Shown here: piece by piece, positions 2,472 through 15,204 of the stretch | Numbering within the stretch: position 1 is the first letter of the stretch | Layout: every line of letters begins with the position of its first letter | Source of the DNA: a virus | Length of the DNA stretch: 29,852 nucleotides | Direction: 5' to 3' (one strand) | Virus record (IMG/VR): IMGVR_UViG_3300023109_000086 | Span: 1-29,852 of that record | Position numbers and translations under genes: made by a program | The notes under the pieces: generated by a model | Told to the model about the DNA's origin: nothing | The model's input: the letters and a program-made list of their open reading frames with translations, nothing else | Databases searched by the model: none

Positions 2472-2642
2472 TTATTCAAAGTTGTCTGTTGTTTCAGACT
2501 CAGCTGCATCAATCCCATCAGTTAGACGTTTACGCATCGTGGCGACAGGGAGTAGCTCCTCCCCGTTCACCGCTCCTCGTTTAGTGACTGTGTCGATCAT
2601 TTGTACCAAAGCTTTGGCAATATCAACCTCAATTTTAACCAT
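2472..2642 (-). CDS. Small hypothetical protein between clamp and clamp loader
   Basis: A 56-residue, mainly helical protein with an acidic tail (AAESETTDNFE). I do not recognise it. The frame extends back to 2681, but the ATG at 2642 overlaps the last codons of gene 45 by 8 nt and starts the hydrophobic-patterned sequence MVKIEVDIAKALVQMID, which looks like the real N-terminus. Its position between 45 and 44 in the replication operon suggests a replication accessory role, but no motif supports this. Confidence 0.6.
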   Translation of the reverse strand: MVKIEVDIAKALVQMIDTVTKRGAVNGEELLPVATMRKRLTDGIDAAESETTDNFE

Positions 2643-3294
2643 CGTATGTTGAGCCTTTCTCTGTTGCAATCCAATACTCAACCATCGAACCTTTGAAGTG
2701 AGAAATGCCCTTTGCAGAGATGGTCACATCATAGTCATCGGAAATGAGTTTCATATTCTCTGGGCGGAATACGAACACAAACGACGCATTAGTCTGACCA
2801 ACTTCACGGTTAAACTCGTTTGATGTTGGGTTAGAAACATCAGTAGCTGTGAGAGTGATCGAGCCATCCTGACCACGAACAACAATATTTGGAAGTTGAA
2901 GTTGGTTAGCTGCATTACGAACCTTAGCAAAGTCGTCGGCAGTCATTTTAAAGGAAACTTCACGTGAAGGCAATTCAAGGTTTTTCTCTGGTGGTGTAGT
3001 CACCATAGAAGGATCTGTGTATGTGTAGCGAGAACGTGTTGAACCTTCCGCTACAGTAACAGCCTTCTCACCAAACTCATAGTCTGGGTCTTCAAAGATC
3101 GAGTCAAGACCCAAAAACTGGTTCAGCTCATAGATAGCAAAGTCTGATGGAAATGCCTCTGCAACCACAGCCTGAGCCAAGATATTCTTACCTTCAGAAA
3201 TAGTTCGCAGAGTGTTGCCCTGCTTGATCGCAATAGACTGATTGATTGTCGAGAAGTTTTTCAAAACGTTAAGGGTATTGTCACTGATTTTCAT
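2635..3294 (-). CDS. 45: Sliding clamp gp45
   Basis: The trimeric T4-type sliding clamp tethers DNA polymerase and, in T4, activates late transcription. The 219 residues are close to T4 gp45 (228) and show the two-domain clamp pattern: a helix-forming N-terminus (LNVLKNFSTINQSI), the conserved IYELNQFLGL segment and C-terminal strands ending in a lysine/tyrosine-rich tail. The ATG at 3294 has GGAGAA about 6 nt upstream. It heads the 45-x-44-62-regA-mazG operon behind its own consensus promoter. It is relevant to the clamp-tail peptides at 8869 and 9687. Confidence 0.95.
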   Translation of the reverse strand: MKISDNTLNVLKNFSTINQSIAIKQGNTLRTISEGKNILAQAVVAEAFPSDFAIYELNQFLGLDSIFEDPDYEFGEKAVTVAEGSTRSRYTYTDPSMVTTPPEKNLELPSREVSFKMTADDFAKVRNAANQLQLPNIVVRGQDGSITLTATDVSNPTSNEFNREVGQTNASFVFVFRPENMKLISDDYDVTISAKGISHFKGSMVEYWIATEKGSTYDG

Positions 3295-3351: not shown

Positions 3352-3860
3352 GAAGTTTGATCATGGATATTAGCCATAAGTTGATCCACGTTGAATTGAA
3401 GTTCGTCAAGCGAACCATTATTGTCGATGGTATAGTCTGCCATCCATTGCTCAAGACTCATACTATCCTTGCTTTCGGTTGGAAGGTGGTTGCTTCGATC
3501 CACCCAAATAGCATAGTCGTATGCGTCAATATTCTGAAGCGCAAAGAACTCACGTTTGTTGCGCAATCCACAATAAATATCATACCGCCCTAAGATAGCT
3601 GTTCCGAGGGCAGCAGCGTTTGGAATATTGAACGAACAGATAGAGTCATACCATTCAGCACGATGATTGTGTCGATCATCATAACACTCCTGTTCGTTCA
3701 TGTATCCATATACATCTCTTAGATCATCATAGATAAAGAGTTTGGAGCAAAAACGGGAACTGCTCTCAAAAGTGTACCCGTATTTGTCTCGCAAAATCTC
3801 ACAGACGGTATCTTTACCGTGTCGACCATGACCAATAACTAAAAGTTTTAAATTTGGCAT
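3348..3860 (-). CDS. Deoxynucleoside monophosphate kinase-like P-loop protein
   Basis: A 170-residue P-loop kinase. The N-terminus is a beta strand running into a Walker A motif, GHGRHGKDT at residues 10-18, of the GxxxxGKD type seen in phage dNMP kinases such as T4 gp1. A DDRHNHRAEWYD segment and a late IDNNGSLDELQ segment also fit that group. Such enzymes phosphorylate dNMPs, and in T4 also the hydroxymethylated dCMP, to diphosphates for replication. The start codon overlaps the stop of the upstream glycosyltransferase by one base (TAATG), so the two are co-translated. Substrate unknown. Confidence 0.7.
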   Translation of the reverse strand: MPNLKLLVIGHGRHGKDTVCEILRDKYGYTFESSSRFCSKLFIYDDLRDVYGYMNEQECYDDRHNHRAEWYDSICSFNIPNAAALGTAILGRYDIYCGLRNKREFFALQNIDAYDYAIWVDRSNHLPTESKDSMSLEQWMADYTIDNNGSLDELQFNVDQLMANIHDQTS

Positions 3861-4711
3861 TATTTCTTCATTTTCTTAATAGCTGATACATCAGCTGTCG
3901 CAGAAGCACCAAGCTGAGCAATATCCGCCAGAGAACCACCAAAGACATAGGAACCAGCATGGATAAGCTTCATCCATGGGCAGAACCATACTTGCACATC
4001 AACCTTGCGCATCCACTGACAAAACATATAATCTTCCGAAAGATATCTCTTTGACTTCGGATCAATCAATGCCTGAAAATACATCATGATCTCACGTGTG
4101 CCATCAAAGTTCTTCGTGCGCACATGGTCGGGAAGATATGAATACTCGGGATATTCCTTTTCAAACTTCTCAAATGCAGAGCGCTGGATCATCATAAACC
4201 CTGTACCACCTTCAAGAACAGAGACTGGCTCATCAATACGAATTTGAGACTGACCCTCAGCTGGGTTAAAGACAAAGTCTCCAACATACTTTTCAAGGTT
4301 TCCTGGATTGTCGTCAGCATAGCCTTTGTCAACAGCCATCTTGATCTTCTCCCAAGAGATAGTTTTCTTTGGGTATGGACCACACATGATTTCATATTTC
4401 TTATCTTCTGGATCCATAAGAGCCGCAAGAGTGAGAACGTCTTGGGGGTCAAACCCAATGTCACTATCAATAAACATCATATGCGTGCAATCAGAACGCA
4501 GGAACTCATCAACGCAATAGTTGCGAGCACGTGTAATTAGAGATTCATTGAACAGGTAAAAGAAACGACACTCAATATTATAAGCTTGACAAAGCTTGGC
4601 GAGATCCGCACATGCCTTAGCATACATGCCATGACATTGACCCCCATACATGGGGGTGGCTACAAACAACCTTCGCTTTTGTAGCTCTTCTGTTGAAATT
4701 TCAATATTCAT
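3860..4711 (-). CDS. GT-A-type glycosyltransferase
   Basis: A 283-residue glycosyltransferase-like protein with a GT-A nucleotide-sugar fold. The N-terminal RLFVATPMYGG strand is followed by an alpha/beta region. The metal-binding DxD is FIDSDIGF at residues 80-87. An EGGTGFMMI segment, a late SEDYMFCQWMRK (the ED acid region) and an H in LIHAGS complete the usual order. It would transfer a sugar from a nucleotide sugar; the acceptor is unknown. Coupling to a dNMP kinase makes DNA-base modification a possibility, but lipopolysaccharide or protein targets cannot be excluded. It has its own promoter within the end of the upstream AAA+ gene. Confidence 0.75.
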   Translation of the reverse strand: MNIEISTEELQKRRLFVATPMYGGQCHGMYAKACADLAKLCQAYNIECRFFYLFNESLITRARNYCVDEFLRSDCTHMMFIDSDIGFDPQDVLTLAALMDPEDKKYEIMCGPYPKKTISWEKIKMAVDKGYADDNPGNLEKYVGDFVFNPAEGQSQIRIDEPVSVLEGGTGFMMIQRSAFEKFEKEYPEYSYLPDHVRTKNFDGTREIMMYFQALIDPKSKRYLSEDYMFCQWMRKVDVQVWFCPWMKLIHAGSYVFGGSLADIAQLGASATADVSAIKKMKK

Positions 4712-4770: not shown

Positions 4771-4800
4771 AATATATAGGGATTTAAAACGAAGTGTCAA
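4771..4800 (-). promoter_or_regulatory. Sigma70-type promoter for glycosyltransferase/kinase pair
   Basis: TTGACA (4800-4795) lies in the last codons of the CobS-like gene. TATATT (4776-4771) follows at 18 nt; TATATA at 16 nt is the alternative. The start codon of the glycosyltransferase is about 60 nt downstream. Confidence 0.65.
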
Positions 4801-5935
4801 GCGTTTCCTGAGAATTTTCTTCACCCAAAGAAACTTCATCATCAAGCTTCGTATACAAGTCACGGAAAGACAGTTTTGTCTCTTCGTCGAAGCGGTTGAT
4901 GCACATCTCGATAGCTTTCATCTTATCATTAAAGATAGAGTAAGCTTTGGCGATGTGGACGAGACGACGAGTAGAGATGATCTCGTCAACACCACCGTCA
5001 TCAAAAGTCTTGCGAACAATATCCGCCCAGTCAACAAGCTTGGATGAGAAATTATCGTCGTCGATATTCAAACCTTCGAACACACGGTTCAAGATTTTTT
5101 TCTCAGTGGCGACAGTAGGATATTCCTGCTCACAAGTGATTGGAAAACGCTCGAGGAAAGCTTCGTTCAAGACGTTAGTACCGATAAAGCGCCCGTCCTC
5201 AGAACCTTTACCTTTGGTATTTGCAGTAGCAATAACCGTGAATCCAGGAGTAGGAGTGATATACTCGCCAGTCTTTTTCATAAAGTAGCCATTACCCTCA
5301 AGGATAGACTGGAGGCACATGATTTTAGCAGGATTACCCAAGTCGATTTCATCGAGGAGCAAGACAGCGCCCATCTCCATAGCACGAATAACTGGTCCTT
5401 TGAAGAACTTAGTATCACCATTGACCAAGCGGAAGCCACCGATCAAATCATCTTCATCGGTTTCAATGGTGAAGTTAACACGGATAACCTCACGCTTGGT
5501 CGCAGCACAAGCTTGCTCAATCGAAAACGTCTTACCATTACCAGACATACCAGTAACAAACGCAGGATAGAACATCTTGGAGGCAATAACTTTTTTCAGA
5601 GTAGCAAAGTTGCCGAAAGGAACAAACAGAGGATCTTTGGCTGGAACCAAGTTCTCAGTAAAAGAATTAGACTGAACATTCATATCAACAGTAGTAGGAG
5701 CAGCTACAGGAGCCACTGGTGCAGGAGCAGCAGTGGGAAGCTGCGTAACCGTCGCAGCAAGATTGTAAACACCACGCTTCACACGAAACGTATCTTTGTT
5801 ACTGAAAACTTGCGAAACACTCAGGTTTGATTCGGCAGCGACTTCCAGTAGCTGTTTGTTGGTCACCACGCTTGTGCCATACTTTTCAATACAGGCATTA
5901 TTCAGAGCAGCAGTCATTGTTGTCACATCAGTCAT
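4784..5935 (-). CDS. cobS: CobS/MoxR-like AAA+ ATPase
   Basis: A 383-residue AAA+ ATPase. A short helical N-terminal domain (1-60) and an Ala/Pro linker (66-80) precede the ATPase core: Walker A GMSGNGKT at 129-136, Walker B AVLLLDEID at 189-197, then VIATANT (sensor 1) and an arginine-rich ISTRRLVHIA segment. The closest families I know are CobS, the ATPase subunit of aerobic cobaltochelatase, and MoxR proteins. Both work with a VWA-domain partner, and the gene just upstream encodes one. No cobN chelatase subunit is in view, so a remodelling or chaperone role is at least as likely as cobalamin synthesis. It has its own near-perfect promoter. Confidence 0.82.
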   Translation of the reverse strand: MTDVTTMTAALNNACIEKYGTSVVTNKQLLEVAAESNLSVSQVFSNKDTFRVKRGVYNLAATVTQLPTAAPAPVAPVAAPTTVDMNVQSNSFTENLVPAKDPLFVPFGNFATLKKVIASKMFYPAFVTGMSGNGKTFSIEQACAATKREVIRVNFTIETDEDDLIGGFRLVNGDTKFFKGPVIRAMEMGAVLLLDEIDLGNPAKIMCLQSILEGNGYFMKKTGEYITPTPGFTVIATANTKGKGSEDGRFIGTNVLNEAFLERFPITCEQEYPTVATEKKILNRVFEGLNIDDDNFSSKLVDWADIVRKTFDDGGVDEIISTRRLVHIAKAYSIFNDKMKAIEMCINRFDEETKLSFRDLYTKLDDEVSLGEENSQETLDTSF

Positions 5936-5970
5936 AATATATTCCTCAATTTTTCATCAGTTACAAAACG

Positions 5971-5999
5971 ATTGTAACGCATAGAAAGAGATATGTCAA
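5971..5999 (-). promoter_or_regulatory. Sigma70-type promoter for CobS-like gene
   Basis: TTGACA (5999-5994), a 17-nt spacer and TACAAT (5976-5971) lie in the 93-nt gap between the CobT-like and CobS-like genes, 35 nt before the start codon. This separates the two genes into independently initiated transcripts. Confidence 0.8.
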
Positions 6000-6028
6000 C
6001 CCCTTTTTTGTATTTTTTTCATCTTTTT

Positions 6029-8164
6029 TTATGCTACCATCTCAATAAACTCGGTCAGCATTTTACGGGAAGTAAGGCGATTTGACATAGACTTACTGAA
6101 CGCAGTTTTGATCTTGTTTTTTGATGCATCTTCATCGACCTCAAACTCAGCATTAGAAGCTTTCATGCTAGTGTCAAGAATAAGGAAACTCTTATCAAAC
6201 CCACGGGATTCATATGACATCCATTTATCTTTACGAATGGTTTTTCGAGCAGCCGCAACCCCATCCCAATCTATCTGAGTTTTATGAGAAAGTATATGGT
6301 GCAAATGATGACCACGAATATCAAACTGCGTAACAATACGAATGCCAACAACATTTGAACCAGTCTCATCAGCATAAATCTCGAGAAGAGCTTTAGTCGG
6401 GTCTTCTCGATCATCCAAAATATACCGTTGGTTGCGGAATTTTATCTGCGTTTTACGGTTCCCCCAAATGCGGCTATATTGATATTCACCATCATCGTAT
6501 GTTAAAGCGTTTGAGCACCCATCTGTCAAGAATATCGCATTTACAATATCAAGACGATTAGCAGCTTTAAATTTATTGTGGATCTTCATGCCAGCAATAA
6601 TCGCATCATTGAGTGGAGTGCTGTTAAGGCGATAATGGGCAAGGCGGTCCATGCTATCATATCCTTTATTCATAATATCCCAGGAAATGCCCAGCTGCCG
6701 ATTACTAGGGCGGTCTCGTGTATTCATAACAGAAAGGAACAAGAGGTTTTTACAAGCCTCAGTAAACTTACTGCGAGTCAAATCACTATTCAACAATTCA
6801 ATGAAACGGAAGTTCTCAGCCACAGACATGTGGTTTTTTTGGCGACGGGGCATAACATTAGAAGTGCCGGACAAGTCAGTAAAAGCCAACACTTTGAATG
6901 GGATTGCCACTTGCTTACAAAAGGAAGCAAGGCAAAGGCACTGCTCAACCGTTTTACTGAAAGAAGAATACATAGAACCAGACCAATCAAGATACAAAAT
7001 CATACCGTGGCTCTTACCATTGGCCACCACACCAACTCGTGAGAAGATGTCGTCAGAGAACTTGTAGTTATTCATCTTAACAGTATCAATGACACCAGAC
7101 TTCGAAGTTGTGGTGCGGGCATACTCAGCGGCACGTTTCTTCATCTCAAACTCTTTGACGAGGTAATTAATTGTTTTCTTGTTATTGGTTTTAAATTTAT
7201 TGAACAGAGCGTCTTTGAAAGCCGCAGGAACCGAAGCAGCAGCAAGATCCTTTGCGATCTGATCAGGTGTGGTAACTTTGATGTTATCCCAATTTTGGGG
7301 GTCAACTACAACGGTGGTAACGTTTTCATTAGTGCTGCTGATCTCACGAATAGAATTAGAAAGAACCTTATCTGTCAGTGATACTGGCTCTTCGCTCGTT
7401 TCACCACCAGTGTCTGTAGTTGTCTGACTCTGTGATTCTGATTCTTGATCATCAGAACCGACTTCATCTTCTTTACCAGAAGCATCATCGTTGGCAGCTT
7501 CCGTTTCTTTTCTAGTTTCTTCAGAAGTATCACCATCTCCTGATTGGTTGGTGGGAAGGTCTAATTCTTGGTCAGAAGAATCAGAAGATTCAGGCTGGGG
7601 AGAAGAAGAAGACATAGCTTCAAACAAACGAATGGCGCAGTCAAGAGCCTCTTCAAAAGTCTCGAGACCACGCATCTCCTCGACCCAAACCTTCTCGTCC
7701 TCTTCAATGCGAACACCAACAGACTCACCGCATTTGAACAAAACATTCAAGCGGTCGATCAGATCATAGGAGCTGTTGATTTCATCAACGCTGGCACCAA
7801 AGAAATTGTCAGCGAGCATATTTTGATAAGAACGAACGAAAGAGCGACGGAGTCCAGGAAAGCGGCGCTGAATCAACTTTTCGATACGAGCATCTTCCAC
7901 GACATTTAGAAAACCCTTAAAAGCTTGACCACGCTCCTCAACTTCATCCATCCAACCTTCAGATGGTGTGTACAGAGCGTGGCCAACTTCGTGACCCACG
8001 AGATGGTCATAAGTAAAGCTTTCCATTTTATCCCACATGGGGAGAGTCAGAACACGGTTCAAGACATCGAAGGAAGCAGTGGCGACGGTATCGTGGGTGA
8101 CGTCGATATTCTCTTGGGAGAGAAGACGGGCGAGAATTTCTTTGGAAGCGGTGTTAACAGTCAT
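6029..8164 (-). CDS. cobT: CobT-like protein: zinc-metallopeptidase motif plus VWA domain
   Basis: A 711-residue protein. The N-terminal domain carries HEVGH (58-62), an HExxH zinc motif, and NVVEDARIE (about 87-95), the CobT-type VEDARxE segment that could give a third ligand. An acidic, Ser/Asp/Glu-rich linker spans about 185-260. A C-terminal VWA domain has the MIDAS motif DWSGS (393-397) and a later LTDGCS. This layout matches CobT, the partner of CobS in cobaltochelatase, and the VWA partners of MoxR ATPases. With the CobS-like neighbour it probably forms an ATP-driven complex. Target unknown. The intact HExxH suggests that peptidase activity is possible. Confidence 0.8.
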   Translation of the reverse strand: MTVNTASKEILARLLSQENIDVTHDTVATASFDVLNRVLTLPMWDKMESFTYDHLVGHEVGHALYTPSEGWMDEVEERGQAFKGFLNVVEDARIEKLIQRRFPGLRRSFVRSYQNMLADNFFGASVDEINSSYDLIDRLNVLFKCGESVGVRIEEDEKVWVEEMRGLETFEEALDCAIRLFEAMSSSSPQPESSDSSDQELDLPTNQSGDGDTSEETRKETEAANDDASGKEDEVGSDDQESESQSQTTTDTGGETSEEPVSLTDKVLSNSIREISSTNENVTTVVVDPQNWDNIKVTTPDQIAKDLAAASVPAAFKDALFNKFKTNNKKTINYLVKEFEMKKRAAEYARTTTSKSGVIDTVKMNNYKFSDDIFSRVGVVANGKSHGMILYLDWSGSMYSSFSKTVEQCLCLASFCKQVAIPFKVLAFTDLSGTSNVMPRRQKNHMSVAENFRFIELLNSDLTRSKFTEACKNLLFLSVMNTRDRPSNRQLGISWDIMNKGYDSMDRLAHYRLNSTPLNDAIIAGMKIHNKFKAANRLDIVNAIFLTDGCSNALTYDDGEYQYSRIWGNRKTQIKFRNQRYILDDREDPTKALLEIYADETGSNVVGIRIVTQFDIRGHHLHHILSHKTQIDWDGVAAARKTIRKDKWMSYESRGFDKSFLILDTSMKASNAEFEVDEDASKNKIKTAFSKSMSNRLTSRKMLTEFIEMVA

Positions 8165-8226: not shown

Positions 8227-8796
8227 TCACATTTTTTCGAGTTTTTTAAAAATATTTTTTTGCTCTGACTTTGGCAGTTGCTTAAACATTTCCATGATAC
8301 GATCTTGAGTGCAGATCGGACCATCACATGTTGGGAGACCGCCATACTTTGCAACGTATTCTTGGTGCAACCTACTCTCTACCCCATGTGCTGGAATCTT
8401 AATTCCCTCGCCATAGCCCATTGGGTAGTATGCAACATAAAGGTTTTCTTTGTTTTCTTCACCATACTTTATCCTGAATAGCGTTCCGTTTGCGTATGGG
8501 TTTTTTAGGTGAGCTGCACGTGTAATCGTGCCCATAAAATCTGCGGTGCGGCTGCGGATGCCTCTATATTTACTGGAACCAGCAGTTCCGATATAAACTA
8601 CTCGTTCGTCTAGGTGATCAACCTCTTCCTCAGCAATCGTGTGTTCGGTATCGTATGCATACAGGTAGCAGCCGCCCATGTGATACTTCTCTTGATTCTT
8701 CCTATTAAAGCCAACAACCTCATCACTGAGCTTGCAAACACCATCATCGTCCCAGAGGCGAATCCACTTCGCCTGATAGTCATTGTAGAGCAACAT
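8227..8796 (-). CDS. GIY-YIG-like nuclease domain protein
   Basis: A 189-residue protein that I read as a divergent GIY-YIG domain. GCYLY (42-46) stands for GIY. VVYIG (66-70) is a clear YIG strand, followed by arginines at 78 and 81 in the place of the catalytic Arg. A Glu at 140 in HGVESRLHQEYVAKYG sits where the metal-binding Glu is expected. GIY-YIG proteins cut DNA in repair, restriction or homing. It stands alone between two promoters, which fits a moron-like or homing-type gene, but I see no intron nearby. The insert between the two halves is longer than usual, so the call is moderate. Confidence 0.5.
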   Translation of the reverse strand: MLLYNDYQAKWIRLWDDDGVCKLSDEVVGFNRKNQEKYHMGGCYLYAYDTEHTIAEEEVDHLDERVVYIGTAGSSKYRGIRSRTADFMGTITRAAHLKNPYANGTLFRIKYGEENKENLYVAYYPMGYGEGIKIPAHGVESRLHQEYVAKYGGLPTCDGPICTQDRIMEMFKQLPKSEQKNIFKKLEKM

Positions 8797-8868: not shown

Positions 8869-9690
8869 TTAAGAGAAAAAACTTTCAAGGGTCGTTTCAG
8901 GTTTCTGGTACTTACCTTTAGTAGAGTCTCGAAGTTTCAACTCAGCGTGACCTGTTGTTTTGCGGATATACATCTTACAAAGGTCAGGAAACTCGTCAGC
9001 GATCCACTTCACGCTGTTGTAGATATACTGTTCAGTTCGCACAGTTTGTAGACCGCCAGCCTGTTTATAGTAATTTGACTTAACCGTGATGTCATCGAGG
9101 CGAACCACCACGCCGTGCTTCACATACTGCCGCAAGCTGTACTCATAATCTTCGCCGTGGTTTGTCACACGATCTAAGTATGGATCATGGTCTACAATAA
9201 CACCGAACATGGATGCAATAATATAGCTAAGTTTTGTGTAGGTTCTATGTTTCATAAAGTATGCGTTTGATGCAGCATAGATACCGAACGTTTGCGCTTT
9301 ATTCTCTTCGCACGCAGCAAACCCTCGGAAGATAACTTCTTCCTCAAGATCATCAACCCGTGCAAGGTCTTGCTCACTCACTTTCTTTTGGACCTCATCG
9401 ACGTCATCATCAAACATCATAAGATATGTTCCCTCGGGATACCACTTCTCAATGAAGTTTCGTTGAGCGCCAATAGTCGGTACGCCCTTCACAACCTCGA
9501 TATCTTTAGTGTAATCATTATCTGTTAGCGCCTGAGTGTAGTTTTCATATTCACCTTCTTCTTCAGCGTTAATAAACACTTTAATACGGGATGGGTCGAT
9601 ACCATATTCTTTCAGAACACGCAGCGTCTTACCCTGAATAATATCATGGCGCTTATATGACGGGATAGCAATTTGATAATCATAACTCAT
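8869..9690 (-). CDS. TET-associated glycosyltransferase-like protein (DNA-base modification)
   Basis: A 273-residue GT-A-type protein. It opens with IAIPSYKR, has GVPTIGAQRN (69-78), a metal-binding DDDVD (94-98) and a later GEDYEYSLRQYVKHG acid segment. It overlaps the dioxygenase gene by 4 nt (ATGA). Families of this kind next to TET/JBP dioxygenases were proposed to glycosylate oxidised bases in phage DNA. Here it would transfer a sugar to the hydroxylated base made by its neighbour; this is inference. The extreme C-terminus, TTLESFFS, nearly repeats the tail of the dioxygenase (ASLEGFFS), suggesting a shared partner such as the gp45 clamp. It ends the long uvsY-to-GT run. Confidence 0.72.
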   Translation of the reverse strand: MSYDYQIAIPSYKRHDIIQGKTLRVLKEYGIDPSRIKVFINAEEEGEYENYTQALTDNDYTKDIEVVKGVPTIGAQRNFIEKWYPEGTYLMMFDDDVDEVQKKVSEQDLARVDDLEEEVIFRGFAACEENKAQTFGIYAASNAYFMKHRTYTKLSYIIASMFGVIVDHDPYLDRVTNHGEDYEYSLRQYVKHGVVVRLDDITVKSNYYKQAGGLQTVRTEQYIYNSVKWIADEFPDLCKMYIRKTTGHAELKLRDSTKGKYQKPETTLESFFS

Positions 9691-11084
9691 GAAAAGAACC
9701 CCTCCAAGCTTGCCTCTTTCTCATATGCTTCAGGGTGATATTCACGAACCATATCTTCACCACCGTTAGCTTCTAGATAATCATACCATTCCTGGGTTGT
9801 CCACATAGAAGGCGATACACCATTCCACATCGGCTTCCATAGTTCATGCTCTTTATTAAAACGGCGACTATCAACAAAGTTGCGACGAGCCGCCTCATAT
9901 TCCCAAGAACCCAAATTTGTCATCTTCTCACGGAAGTAGCAGACCAAAGAAACACGTTCCATGTCTTCGATCTTTTTACCTGCAGGCGGTTTCAATTCAG
10001 TATTGCCGTGAATGCCGCCATGGTTATTGATCAATAGCAGATCTCCAGGACGAATATTCACGGCAACCCGAAACTCAGGAAGAACAAGGTAGCCCCCTTC
10101 CCAAGCTTTGTCTTTCGCAACCACCGTCAGATTGGAGAACCCATCATTTAGATCACCCGCATCGTAATGCGCAGCGGTGCGAAAGTTTTTATTCACAGTA
10201 ATTGTTGTGAATGGGGTGTCTTCACCAGCGACACGAAAGCGGCTGTCAATAGTATCAGCAACGGCTTTTTGAACCCCGAAACGTTGAGGCAGAAGTTCTG
10301 CAAACTTATTCGAAAGTTTGCGCATAAATGGATAGCACTTCTCATAATCATCACGATGTTGCTCTGTATATGCTGTAGCCCGACCATATGGAATGCGTGG
10401 ATAGCGATCAAAGAAACCTGCTATCCCAGAGTTTACAGCATTGGCATATGTAGTGTCAGAAATAAATGTTTTCTTCACAGTCGCCGCATCTTTAGCAGCT
10501 GCCTCTGGAGACATATCTTGCCACTCTTTCATCTTCTGCTGGAAGAAGTCCTCATAGTTATATCCAGCGTCATTGATTTTACTCCGCAACCAAACGATTC
10601 CACGTGTAGAACCTTCCAACGATTTATGTTTCTCAATAATCGCTTGGACTGGATCCGAACCATCGTCAAATAGAGAAGCCTTGGGACTGATGTAATGGTC
10701 CATGATTTCGACCTGCTCATCTGTTGCCCAATCACGTGCCCCACTTTGATCACCCTTTGGACCAGCCGCAACACCACGGTTTTGTGTTGGCTGTGCTGCA
10801 GGCATCAGACCATCAAAAGCACCGAGTTGCTCTTGCTCTGTGAATATGTTTTTGCGGTACTTGAAGATAATGTTAGCTTCGCCGTTTTCAGCTTCTCCTG
10901 TCAAACCGCCTGATGCTGGGGCATAGAAGTCCATGTCATCTTCGACTAGAATATCATAGTCGGTATCTTCCATATATGTACCGAGCTTGTGCTTGCAGTC
11001 ATCCCAAAACTTTGCAGTAACTACTGGGATGCCATCCTGCATCTCGACGCTATAGTTTTCAGTATTAATATCACTAACCATCAT
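9687..11084 (-). CDS. TET/JBP-type 2-oxoglutarate/Fe(II) dioxygenase
   Basis: A 465-residue protein with a C-terminal double-stranded beta-helix dioxygenase domain. Iron ligands are H306 and D308 in AAHYDAGD and a distal His, H355 or H359, in NNHGGIHG. GGYLVLPE (330-337), RPGD (345-348) and an Arg in RVSLVCYF (about 377, for 2-oxoglutarate) match the TET/JBP pattern. These enzymes oxidise the 5-methyl group of 5-methylcytosine or thymine in DNA. The N-terminal 200 residues include an acidic, low-complexity part and no domain I recognise. The start ATG at 11084 has AAGGA upstream. No cytosine methyltransferase is in the window, so the substrate base is open. The C-terminus LEGFFS is shared with the next gene. 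Confidence 0.78.
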   Translation of the reverse strand: MMVSDINTENYSVEMQDGIPVVTAKFWDDCKHKLGTYMEDTDYDILVEDDMDFYAPASGGLTGEAENGEANIIFKYRKNIFTEQEQLGAFDGLMPAAQPTQNRGVAAGPKGDQSGARDWATDEQVEIMDHYISPKASLFDDGSDPVQAIIEKHKSLEGSTRGIVWLRSKINDAGYNYEDFFQQKMKEWQDMSPEAAAKDAATVKKTFISDTTYANAVNSGIAGFFDRYPRIPYGRATAYTEQHRDDYEKCYPFMRKLSNKFAELLPQRFGVQKAVADTIDSRFRVAGEDTPFTTITVNKNFRTAAHYDAGDLNDGFSNLTVVAKDKAWEGGYLVLPEFRVAVNIRPGDLLLINNHGGIHGNTELKPPAGKKIEDMERVSLVCYFREKMTNLGSWEYEAARRNFVDSRRFNKEHELWKPMWNGVSPSMWTTQEWYDYLEANGGEDMVREYHPEAYEKEASLEGFFS

Positions 11085-14649: not shown

Positions 14650-15204
14650 TCACTCTTCTTCAATAATGCGTTTCTTCTTCACCTTCTTACGTTTATTTTG
14701 TTCAAAGTTTTCTACAAAGTTTGATACATAATCTTCGTTCCAGTCATTGACTTTAGAATTAGAAGTATAGTCTGTACCAGCATCATGAGCCTGAGAGTCA
14801 GACGTCTCGCCAAAGAGTGTCGCTTGTTCAGTGGCTTTCATTTTTACATACAAATATTTCTTCTCTTTCTGGATACGACGAAGAAAGGCATAGTAAATAA
14901 TTTGTGTGAAGTATGCGAAAGGGTTTTTACTCTTCTCAGGATTGAAGTTGTCAATATACTGTAGACAGTTTTCAACCCCATCCATAATCATATCTTCACG
15001 GAAAGAGTAGTTGATAAAGTTTGGTTTATAGGATAAGTGAGTGGCAATTTTAATAATGCAATCAGCAACATAAAATGGAACATTTGGTCGCTCTTTACCA
15101 GCTTGCGCTGCTTCGGCAATCATTTCTCGATATTCGATCATTGCTTGTAGAAATGCTTTATTGTCCACATAATATGGTCTTTTCTTTTTATCTTTAGCAG
15201 CCAT
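14650..15204 (-). CDS. 55: Late-transcription sigma factor gp55
   Basis: A 184-residue divergent sigma factor that directs host RNA polymerase to TATAAATA late promoters, several of which are visible in this window. PYYVDNKAFLQAM near the N-terminus, the central FREDMIMDGVENCLQYIDNFNPEKSKNPFAYFTQIIYYAFLRRIQKEKK stretch (read in parts) correspond to sigma regions 2.1-2.4. T4 gp55 (185 residues) ends in a hydrophobic/acidic tail that binds the sliding clamp. Here the C-terminus is highly charged and ends RIIEEE, so that tail appears to be absent. It shares one base with the upstream gene (TAATG). Confidence 0.94.
   Translation of the reverse strand: MAAKDKKKRPYYVDNKAFLQAMIEYREMIAEAAQAGKERPNVPFYVADCIIKIATHLSYKPNFINYSFREDMIMDGVENCLQYIDNFNPEKSKNPFAYFTQIIYYAFLRRIQKEKKYLYVKMKATEQATLFGETSDSQAHDAGTDYTSNSKVNDWNEDYVSNFVENFEQNKRKKVKKKRIIEEE

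Follow-up and report, generated by a model that had tools for sequence, protein, structure and literature searches.

The sliding-clamp-binding motif (SCBM) of phages T4 and RB69, carried by the DNA polymerase gp43, gp55, gp33 and DNA ligase, is a short hydrophobic-acidic C-terminal peptide that follows a variable linker. The C-termini of T4 gp43, gp55 and gp33 bind the gp45 sliding clamp and are interchangeable between these proteins, while the gp55 epitope is preceded by a linker that diverges strongly (PMC2988020; PMC7892883). The RB69 gp43 tail bound to gp45 could be resolved in a crystal structure (PMC2988020). The gp43 peptide of RB69 (1B8H) and the ligase peptide of T4 (6DRT) both occupy a hydrophobic patch of the clamp. 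A DNA-modifying glycosyltransferase has also been associated with gp45: a 2026 study of T4 reported that alpha-glucosyltransferase (alpha-GT) copurifies with gp45 while beta-GT does not (PMC13216743). In the TET-TAGT hypermodification clusters of mycobacteriophages and Arthrobacter phages (Pfam Tet_JBP and TAGT), a dioxygenase adjoins a TET-associated glycosyltransferase (TAGT); no gp45 was detected in those phages, and their enzymes carry no such tail.

The stretch of viral DNA analysed here, hereafter the window, consisted of positions 1 to 29,852 of IMG/VR record IMGVR_UViG_3300023109_000086 (29,852 nt). As in the mycobacteriophage and Arthrobacter phage clusters, a dioxygenase gene adjoins a TAGT gene. 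The first (9687–11084, minus strand) encodes a 465-amino-acid TET/JBP-type 2-oxoglutarate dioxygenase (Pfam PF12851, E 1e-22; Tet_JBP profile match of 80 bits against a cut-off of 35), and the second (8869–9690, minus strand) encodes a 273-amino-acid TAGT with a GT-A fold (PF20691, E 2e-13; 51 bits against a cut-off of 27.5). The AF2 model of the dioxygenase (mean pLDDT 87) had its best PDB matches in CcTet, TET2 and NgTET1 (Foldseek, E 1e-9 to 1e-8), and that of the glycosyltransferase (mean pLDDT 84) matched GT-A glycosyltransferases; rows from named phage records were left out of the input alignments. The dioxygenase ends in ...HPEAYEKEASLEGFFS (EKEASLEGFFS) and the glycosyltransferase in ...KGKYQKPETTLESFFS (KPETTLESFFS). 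The original prediction of closely similar tails, ASLEGFFS and TTLESFFS, on two unrelated proteins could thus be confirmed, with ORFs and C-termini as described and with the two enzymes in different protein families, Tet_JBP and TAGT. The span given for it, 8869–9716, does hold both tails but comprises the whole glycosyltransferase together with the dioxygenase tail; the two putative gp45-binding motifs alone occupy 9690–9713 (dioxygenase) and 8872–8895 (glycosyltransferase), both on the minus strand.

The proposed partner is encoded in the same window, as had been noted. A gp45 gene was found at 2635–3294 on the minus strand (gp45-slide_C, E 4e-18; phrog_223, E 3e-73; PDB gp45 chains, E 1e-20), and gp45 is also encoded by the records G001, G002, G003 and G006 and by DLP_6, C48C1 and Cr30. 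ORFs for the clamp loader large subunit gp44 (1513–2469) and small subunit gp62 (1124–1516), both on the minus strand, were assigned by the gene order gp45-gp44-gp62-regA annotated in DLP_6 and Cr30. A second putative glycosyltransferase, read from the sequence and without a Pfam match, lies near the clamp gene (3860–4711), and none of the 18 distinct C-termini among its homologues carries the tail. At 4784–8164, a CobS-like AAA ATPase (AAA_5, CbbQ_C) adjoins a 711-amino-acid CobT-like protein. The uncharacterised 189-amino-acid protein at 8227–8796 (minus strand) has no Pfam match and no tail; its homologue in contig L088 (10027–10692) ends in STLEGFF.

The polymerase gene lies outside the window fragment, and gp43 tails were read in relatives. 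All 19 true C-termini of the relatives' gp43 end in the same peptide or a close variant, including DLP_6 (ATLDSFFA), C48C1 (ATLEDFFG), G001 (SSLESFFA), G002 (KKSSLESFFG, that is, SSLESFFG), G003 (ASLEDFFG) and G006 (ASLEDFF); the dioxygenase of G002 is 66% identical to that of the window. The expected ending was observed on every gp43 of the relatives with a true C-terminus; the gp43 of this phage itself falls beyond the fragment. The relatives' gp43 sequences align along their whole length with T4 gp43 (ending in EEKASLDFLFG), and by this alignment their tail occupies the position of the clamp-binding tail of T4 gp43 (ASLDFLFG). The consensus here is S/T-L-E-x-F-F, compared to S-L-D-F-L-F in T4. 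In G001 and G002, gp43 is split into two ORFs in a 43A/43B-like manner (G001:C1:15313-18136 and G002:C1:29824-32653), with the tail on the C-terminal piece.

The tail was also sought on this phage's gp55 and gp33, which carry it in T4, although its use on other enzymes does not require this; the expectation was not borne out: gp55, a late sigma factor at 14650–15204 (minus strand) recognised by a weak Sigma70_r2 match and by synteny with the annotated gp55 of DLP_6 and Cr30, ends in KKKRIIEEE and has no T4-type clamp epitope, and gp33 was not identified. A loose version of the clamp tail was present in 7 of 29 gp55 C-termini, T4 included. The gp55 epitope is likewise absent from most close relatives, with a loose version near the C-terminus in L022, L039, L066, L080, L084 and L108, and late transcription may be wired differently in this phage.

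A viral-contig search with the dioxygenase as the query yielded 80 loci; in metagenomic relatives, 58 of 63 distinct dioxygenase C-termini end in L-x-x-[FLM]-[FLM]-x(0-1). The five exceptions are L128, which ends in ATLESFFGD, the tail plus two residues; Cr30, which ends only in ...GATLF though it has gp45; and two small phages and S-CBWM1, all three with no detectable gp45. Alignment of 53 dioxygenases revealed an invariant Leu460, with Phe463 and Phe464 each present in 49 of the 52 scorable tails, while the linker residues before the motif were variable. The tail was thus conserved in close relatives, as predicted, and remained near-invariant among homologues down to about 45% identity, which implies selection. 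The TAGT homologues of the clade also end in the tail, except in L135.

Rare tail variants were shared between proteins of the same phage. L041 carries DLSAFLV on the polymerase, SLAGFL on the dioxygenase and SLADFLV on the TAGT; L119 and L126 both have -LEDLF on dioxygenase and TAGT (one of these contigs is without a polymerase, and the polymerase of the other is without its C-terminus); L079 has TLDNLFG on the dioxygenase and TLDELFG on a GT4-type glycosyltransferase; and Cr30 has DLSSLFD on the polymerase and DLSKLF on a TAGT-like protein. Pairs in which both proteins carry a variant occurred five times against 0.9 expected (permutation, p ~0.0007, from few independent lineages). Such co-variation would be expected if the proteins docked at one common site, and we take it as supportive only.

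A chance origin of the shared tail could be rejected. In six related genomes or fragments, L[ED]xF[FLM] occurred 6 times in 179,787 internal residues, while 16 of 662 C-termini carried it against 0.04 expected; DLP_6 was left out of this figure, being GC-rich with overlapping ORFs, where gene calling missed genes. For the window, 0.0023 C-terminal occurrences were expected and two were seen (Poisson P ~3e-6). The genome surveys revealed 13 C-terminal and no internal cases of the strict motif, and the reversed motif was found at no C-terminus in the genome survey. A scan blind to protein family, in which no protein served as the query, covered 2.9 million viral contigs and looked for DNA that encodes S-L-E-[VADEG]-F-F-x-stop. 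Among the 80 matches listed for this pattern, 72 were T4-type gp43, four were TET dioxygenases, one was a TAGT and three were others; with the motif reversed as a control, there were 6 matches, compared to more than 120 for the motif itself. For a second set of codons, in which the stop directly follows FF, the result was complete, with 49 matches, including 17 ORFs of at least 60 amino acids (8 gp43, 7 TET dioxygenases, 1 TAGT and 1 unknown). The tail peptide is therefore close to a signature of the T4-type polymerase and of modification enzymes.

Other modification enzymes of the relatives carry the tail as well. It was present strictly in 16 of 25 C-termini of the amino acid:DNA transferase (ADDT, PF18724), with several more nearly matching, in 9 of 13 C-termini of the GNAT acetyltransferase encoded beside ADDT, in all four of the GT4-type glycosyltransferase, and in 5 of 7 of a second TAGT lineage, where both misses are in phages without gp45. 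Among neighbouring families, 13 (gp44, gp62, gp45, gp46, gp47, gp55, UvsW, RegA, peptide deformylase, CobS-like, CobT-like, Lsm-like and the second putative glycosyltransferase) had the tail in none of 271 distinct C-termini, and one of 11 MazG-like C-termini matched a loose pattern. In the whole records G001, G002, G003, G006 and G008, the C-terminal motif was found mainly on the polymerase and modification enzymes, with a few looser matches on other ORFs.

On the sequence evidence, it is highly likely that S/T-L-E-x-F-F is the clamp-binding tail of gp43, used as a portable short linear motif that tethers DNA-modification enzymes to gp45. The original interpretation is in this way supported by sequence for the two enzymes and gp43, since the tail is conserved, is the same as that of the relatives' gp43 and is absent from the homologues in eight phages without detectable gp45. 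In each enzyme, a flexible linker would join the folded catalytic core to the tail. The dioxygenase would oxidise a base methyl group, the glycosyltransferase would then put a sugar on the resulting hydroxymethyl base, and the tail would dock in a hydrophobic patch on the gp45 trimer, with the enzymes of successive steps tethered to newly copied DNA. What we infer is the binding to gp45, with its three sites used simultaneously or alternately, the coupling of modification to the fork and, for this phage, the catalytic steps and the base substrate. For the wider proposal, the chances appear to be about even: the clamp tail would be a general address label by which TET oxidation, followed by glycosylation or by amino-acid transfer and acetylation, all takes place on gp45, with bases modified just behind the fork. 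If true, the trimeric gp45 clamp would be a moving assembly line for post-replicative base hypermodification.

The clamp-binding tail of gp43 is known; its presence on several kinds of DNA hypermodification enzyme is a new use, and no earlier report of a polymerase-type tail on modification enzymes was found in the limited open-access literature searched. Unlike the SCBM of T4, the tail here is on a TET dioxygenase, TAGT, amino acid:DNA transferase, GNAT and GT4. It also resembles the eukaryotic PIP-box (Qxx[I/L]xxFF, bound by PCNA) in its h-x-x-F-F spacing; where the PIP-box has Gln, the phage tail often has an acidic residue, and the window tails read E-x-x-L-x-x-F-F. The likeness is one of spacing only, as the phage tail has no Gln, is at the extreme C-terminus and has gp45 as its clamp. 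DNMT1-PCNA is a functional analogue. The finding touches the question of how base-modifying phages complete the modification of each new copy before restriction enzymes act, and a polymerase-type tail would offer a direct, removable handle on each enzyme of the pathway. Being near family-specific, the tail could also guide the search for DNA-modifying enzymes of T4-like phages that are not yet known.

The alternative that survives best, although we consider it rather unlikely, accepts the binding step of the preferred reading and holds that the tail is functionally minor, raising the local concentration of the enzymes without coupling them to the fork. T4 lends it weight, as promoter swaps and not clamp affinity explain alpha and beta glucosylation there, and the ratio of the two is set mainly by expression strength (PMC13216743). 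The near-invariance of the dioxygenase tail argues the other way. In addition, T4 makes its hydroxyl in the nucleotide pool, whereas here it probably arises on the DNA itself, which may make timing more important. How much tethering matters for function is the real uncertainty; by analogy with T4, where expression strength and not clamp affinity mainly sets glucosylation, tethering need not be functionally important. The T4 alpha-GT had been invoked as a precedent. Its association with gp45 is real according to PMC13216743, which cites Sommer 2004; however, alpha-GT, which ends in EQFDIITK, lacks a tail of this kind and must bind gp45 some other way, and it was rejected as a tail homologue. 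It also differs in fold from the window TAGT, being GT-B and not GT-A. The TAGT of T6, a family relative, was likewise rejected as a tail homologue, as it has no tail although T6 has gp45; the presence of gp45 is thus not sufficient for the tail.

On the substrate, no C5-methyltransferase (PF00145) could be found in 13 records, among them the window, six related virus records, DLP_6, C48C1 and Cr30, and this enzyme was rejected as the preceding step of the pathway; thymine, or 5mC formed by another route, is therefore possible as the substrate. Of ten records, Cr30 alone had an enzyme of the thymidylate-synthase family, so that no route at the dCMP level is evident. Given the absence of the first enzyme and the near absence of the second in the records examined, a plausible pathway is JBP-like oxidation of thymine in DNA followed by glycosylation or, in ADDT-bearing relatives, amino-acid transfer.

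It is improbable, and less parsimonious, that the tail binds another partner shared by the polymerase and the modification enzymes, such as the clamp loader, gp32 or the host beta clamp. Sequence alone cannot name the partner, and bacterial beta-clamp motifs are likewise short Leu/Phe peptides (PMC9690074). The gp43 tail of T4 and RB69 in the same position does, however, bind gp45, as seen in the RB69 crystal structure (PMC2988020), and the tail occurs in phages with gp45 but was absent from the tested phages without it. The homologues lacking the tail, a comparison that had been suggested at the outset, sit in phages without gp45: none of 12 Tet/TAGT homologues from eight phages in which no gp45 could be detected (HTVC112P, P12024L, Indlovu, Rich, Altadena, Bolt007, ctUhy936 and LuckyBarnes) carries it. 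S-CBWM1, with no gp45 detected, is ambiguous, as its dioxygenase has no tail and its TAGT ends in ELEDLLP.

Still less credible is the reading that the tail serves the structure or oligomerisation of each enzyme, with the likeness due to convergence. Both AF2 models do predict the tail as a short helix, but the pLDDT drops to about 59 (dioxygenase) and 44 (glycosyltransferase) at the tail tip, compared to about 90 across much of the cores, which would fit a flexible peptide; moreover, the linker sequence varies, and the identical peptide is present on several unrelated folds, including the polymerase.

The least probable alternative, a constraint on the nucleotides (the Shine-Dalgarno sequence of the next gene or an overlapping start) or gene conversion between neighbours, can be dismissed as the sole cause: Shine-Dalgarno-like strings do occur in 41 of 61 dioxygenase tail codings, but tails are kept where neither such strings nor an overlapping start is present (e.g., L011, L056, L062 and L063), tail codons vary freely, and the polymerase carries the tail too. 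The shared LExFFS core is encoded by CTT GAA AGT TTT TTC TCT in the glycosyltransferase and TTG GAG GGG TTC TTT TCA in the dioxygenase, which differ at all synonymous sites (CTT/TTG, GAA/GAG, TTT/TTC, TTC/TTT and TCT/TCA); a recent DNA duplication between the two genes is ruled out by these codons. Shine-Dalgarno constraint as the sole cause is refuted by the persistence of the amino acids without such strings, and nucleotide constraint may help to explain why pairs such as Glu-Gly and Glu-Asp are preferred. In the window, the dioxygenase tail codons contain the likely ribosome-binding site GGAGGGG (9699–9705, minus strand), 8 nt before the glycosyltransferase ATG (9688–9690), which is a second use of the tail DNA. 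The dioxygenase stop and glycosyltransferase start overlap (ATGA), and two constraints thus fall on one DNA stretch (9687–9705).

A few further carriers could be observed in relatives. The tail was present in one of six C-termini of the D12 N6A methyltransferase; the carrier, a D12-class N6-adenine methyltransferase of C48C1 (L003:3847-4728), lies directly after gp43 and ends in STLDAFFG, while its five homologues have no tail. Some small nucleases also carry the tail. A 148-amino-acid ORF (L173:4601-5044) with a weak match to the SinI restriction endonuclease ends in PVASLEDFFG; it may be a further protein with the tail, or else a gene with a frame shift.
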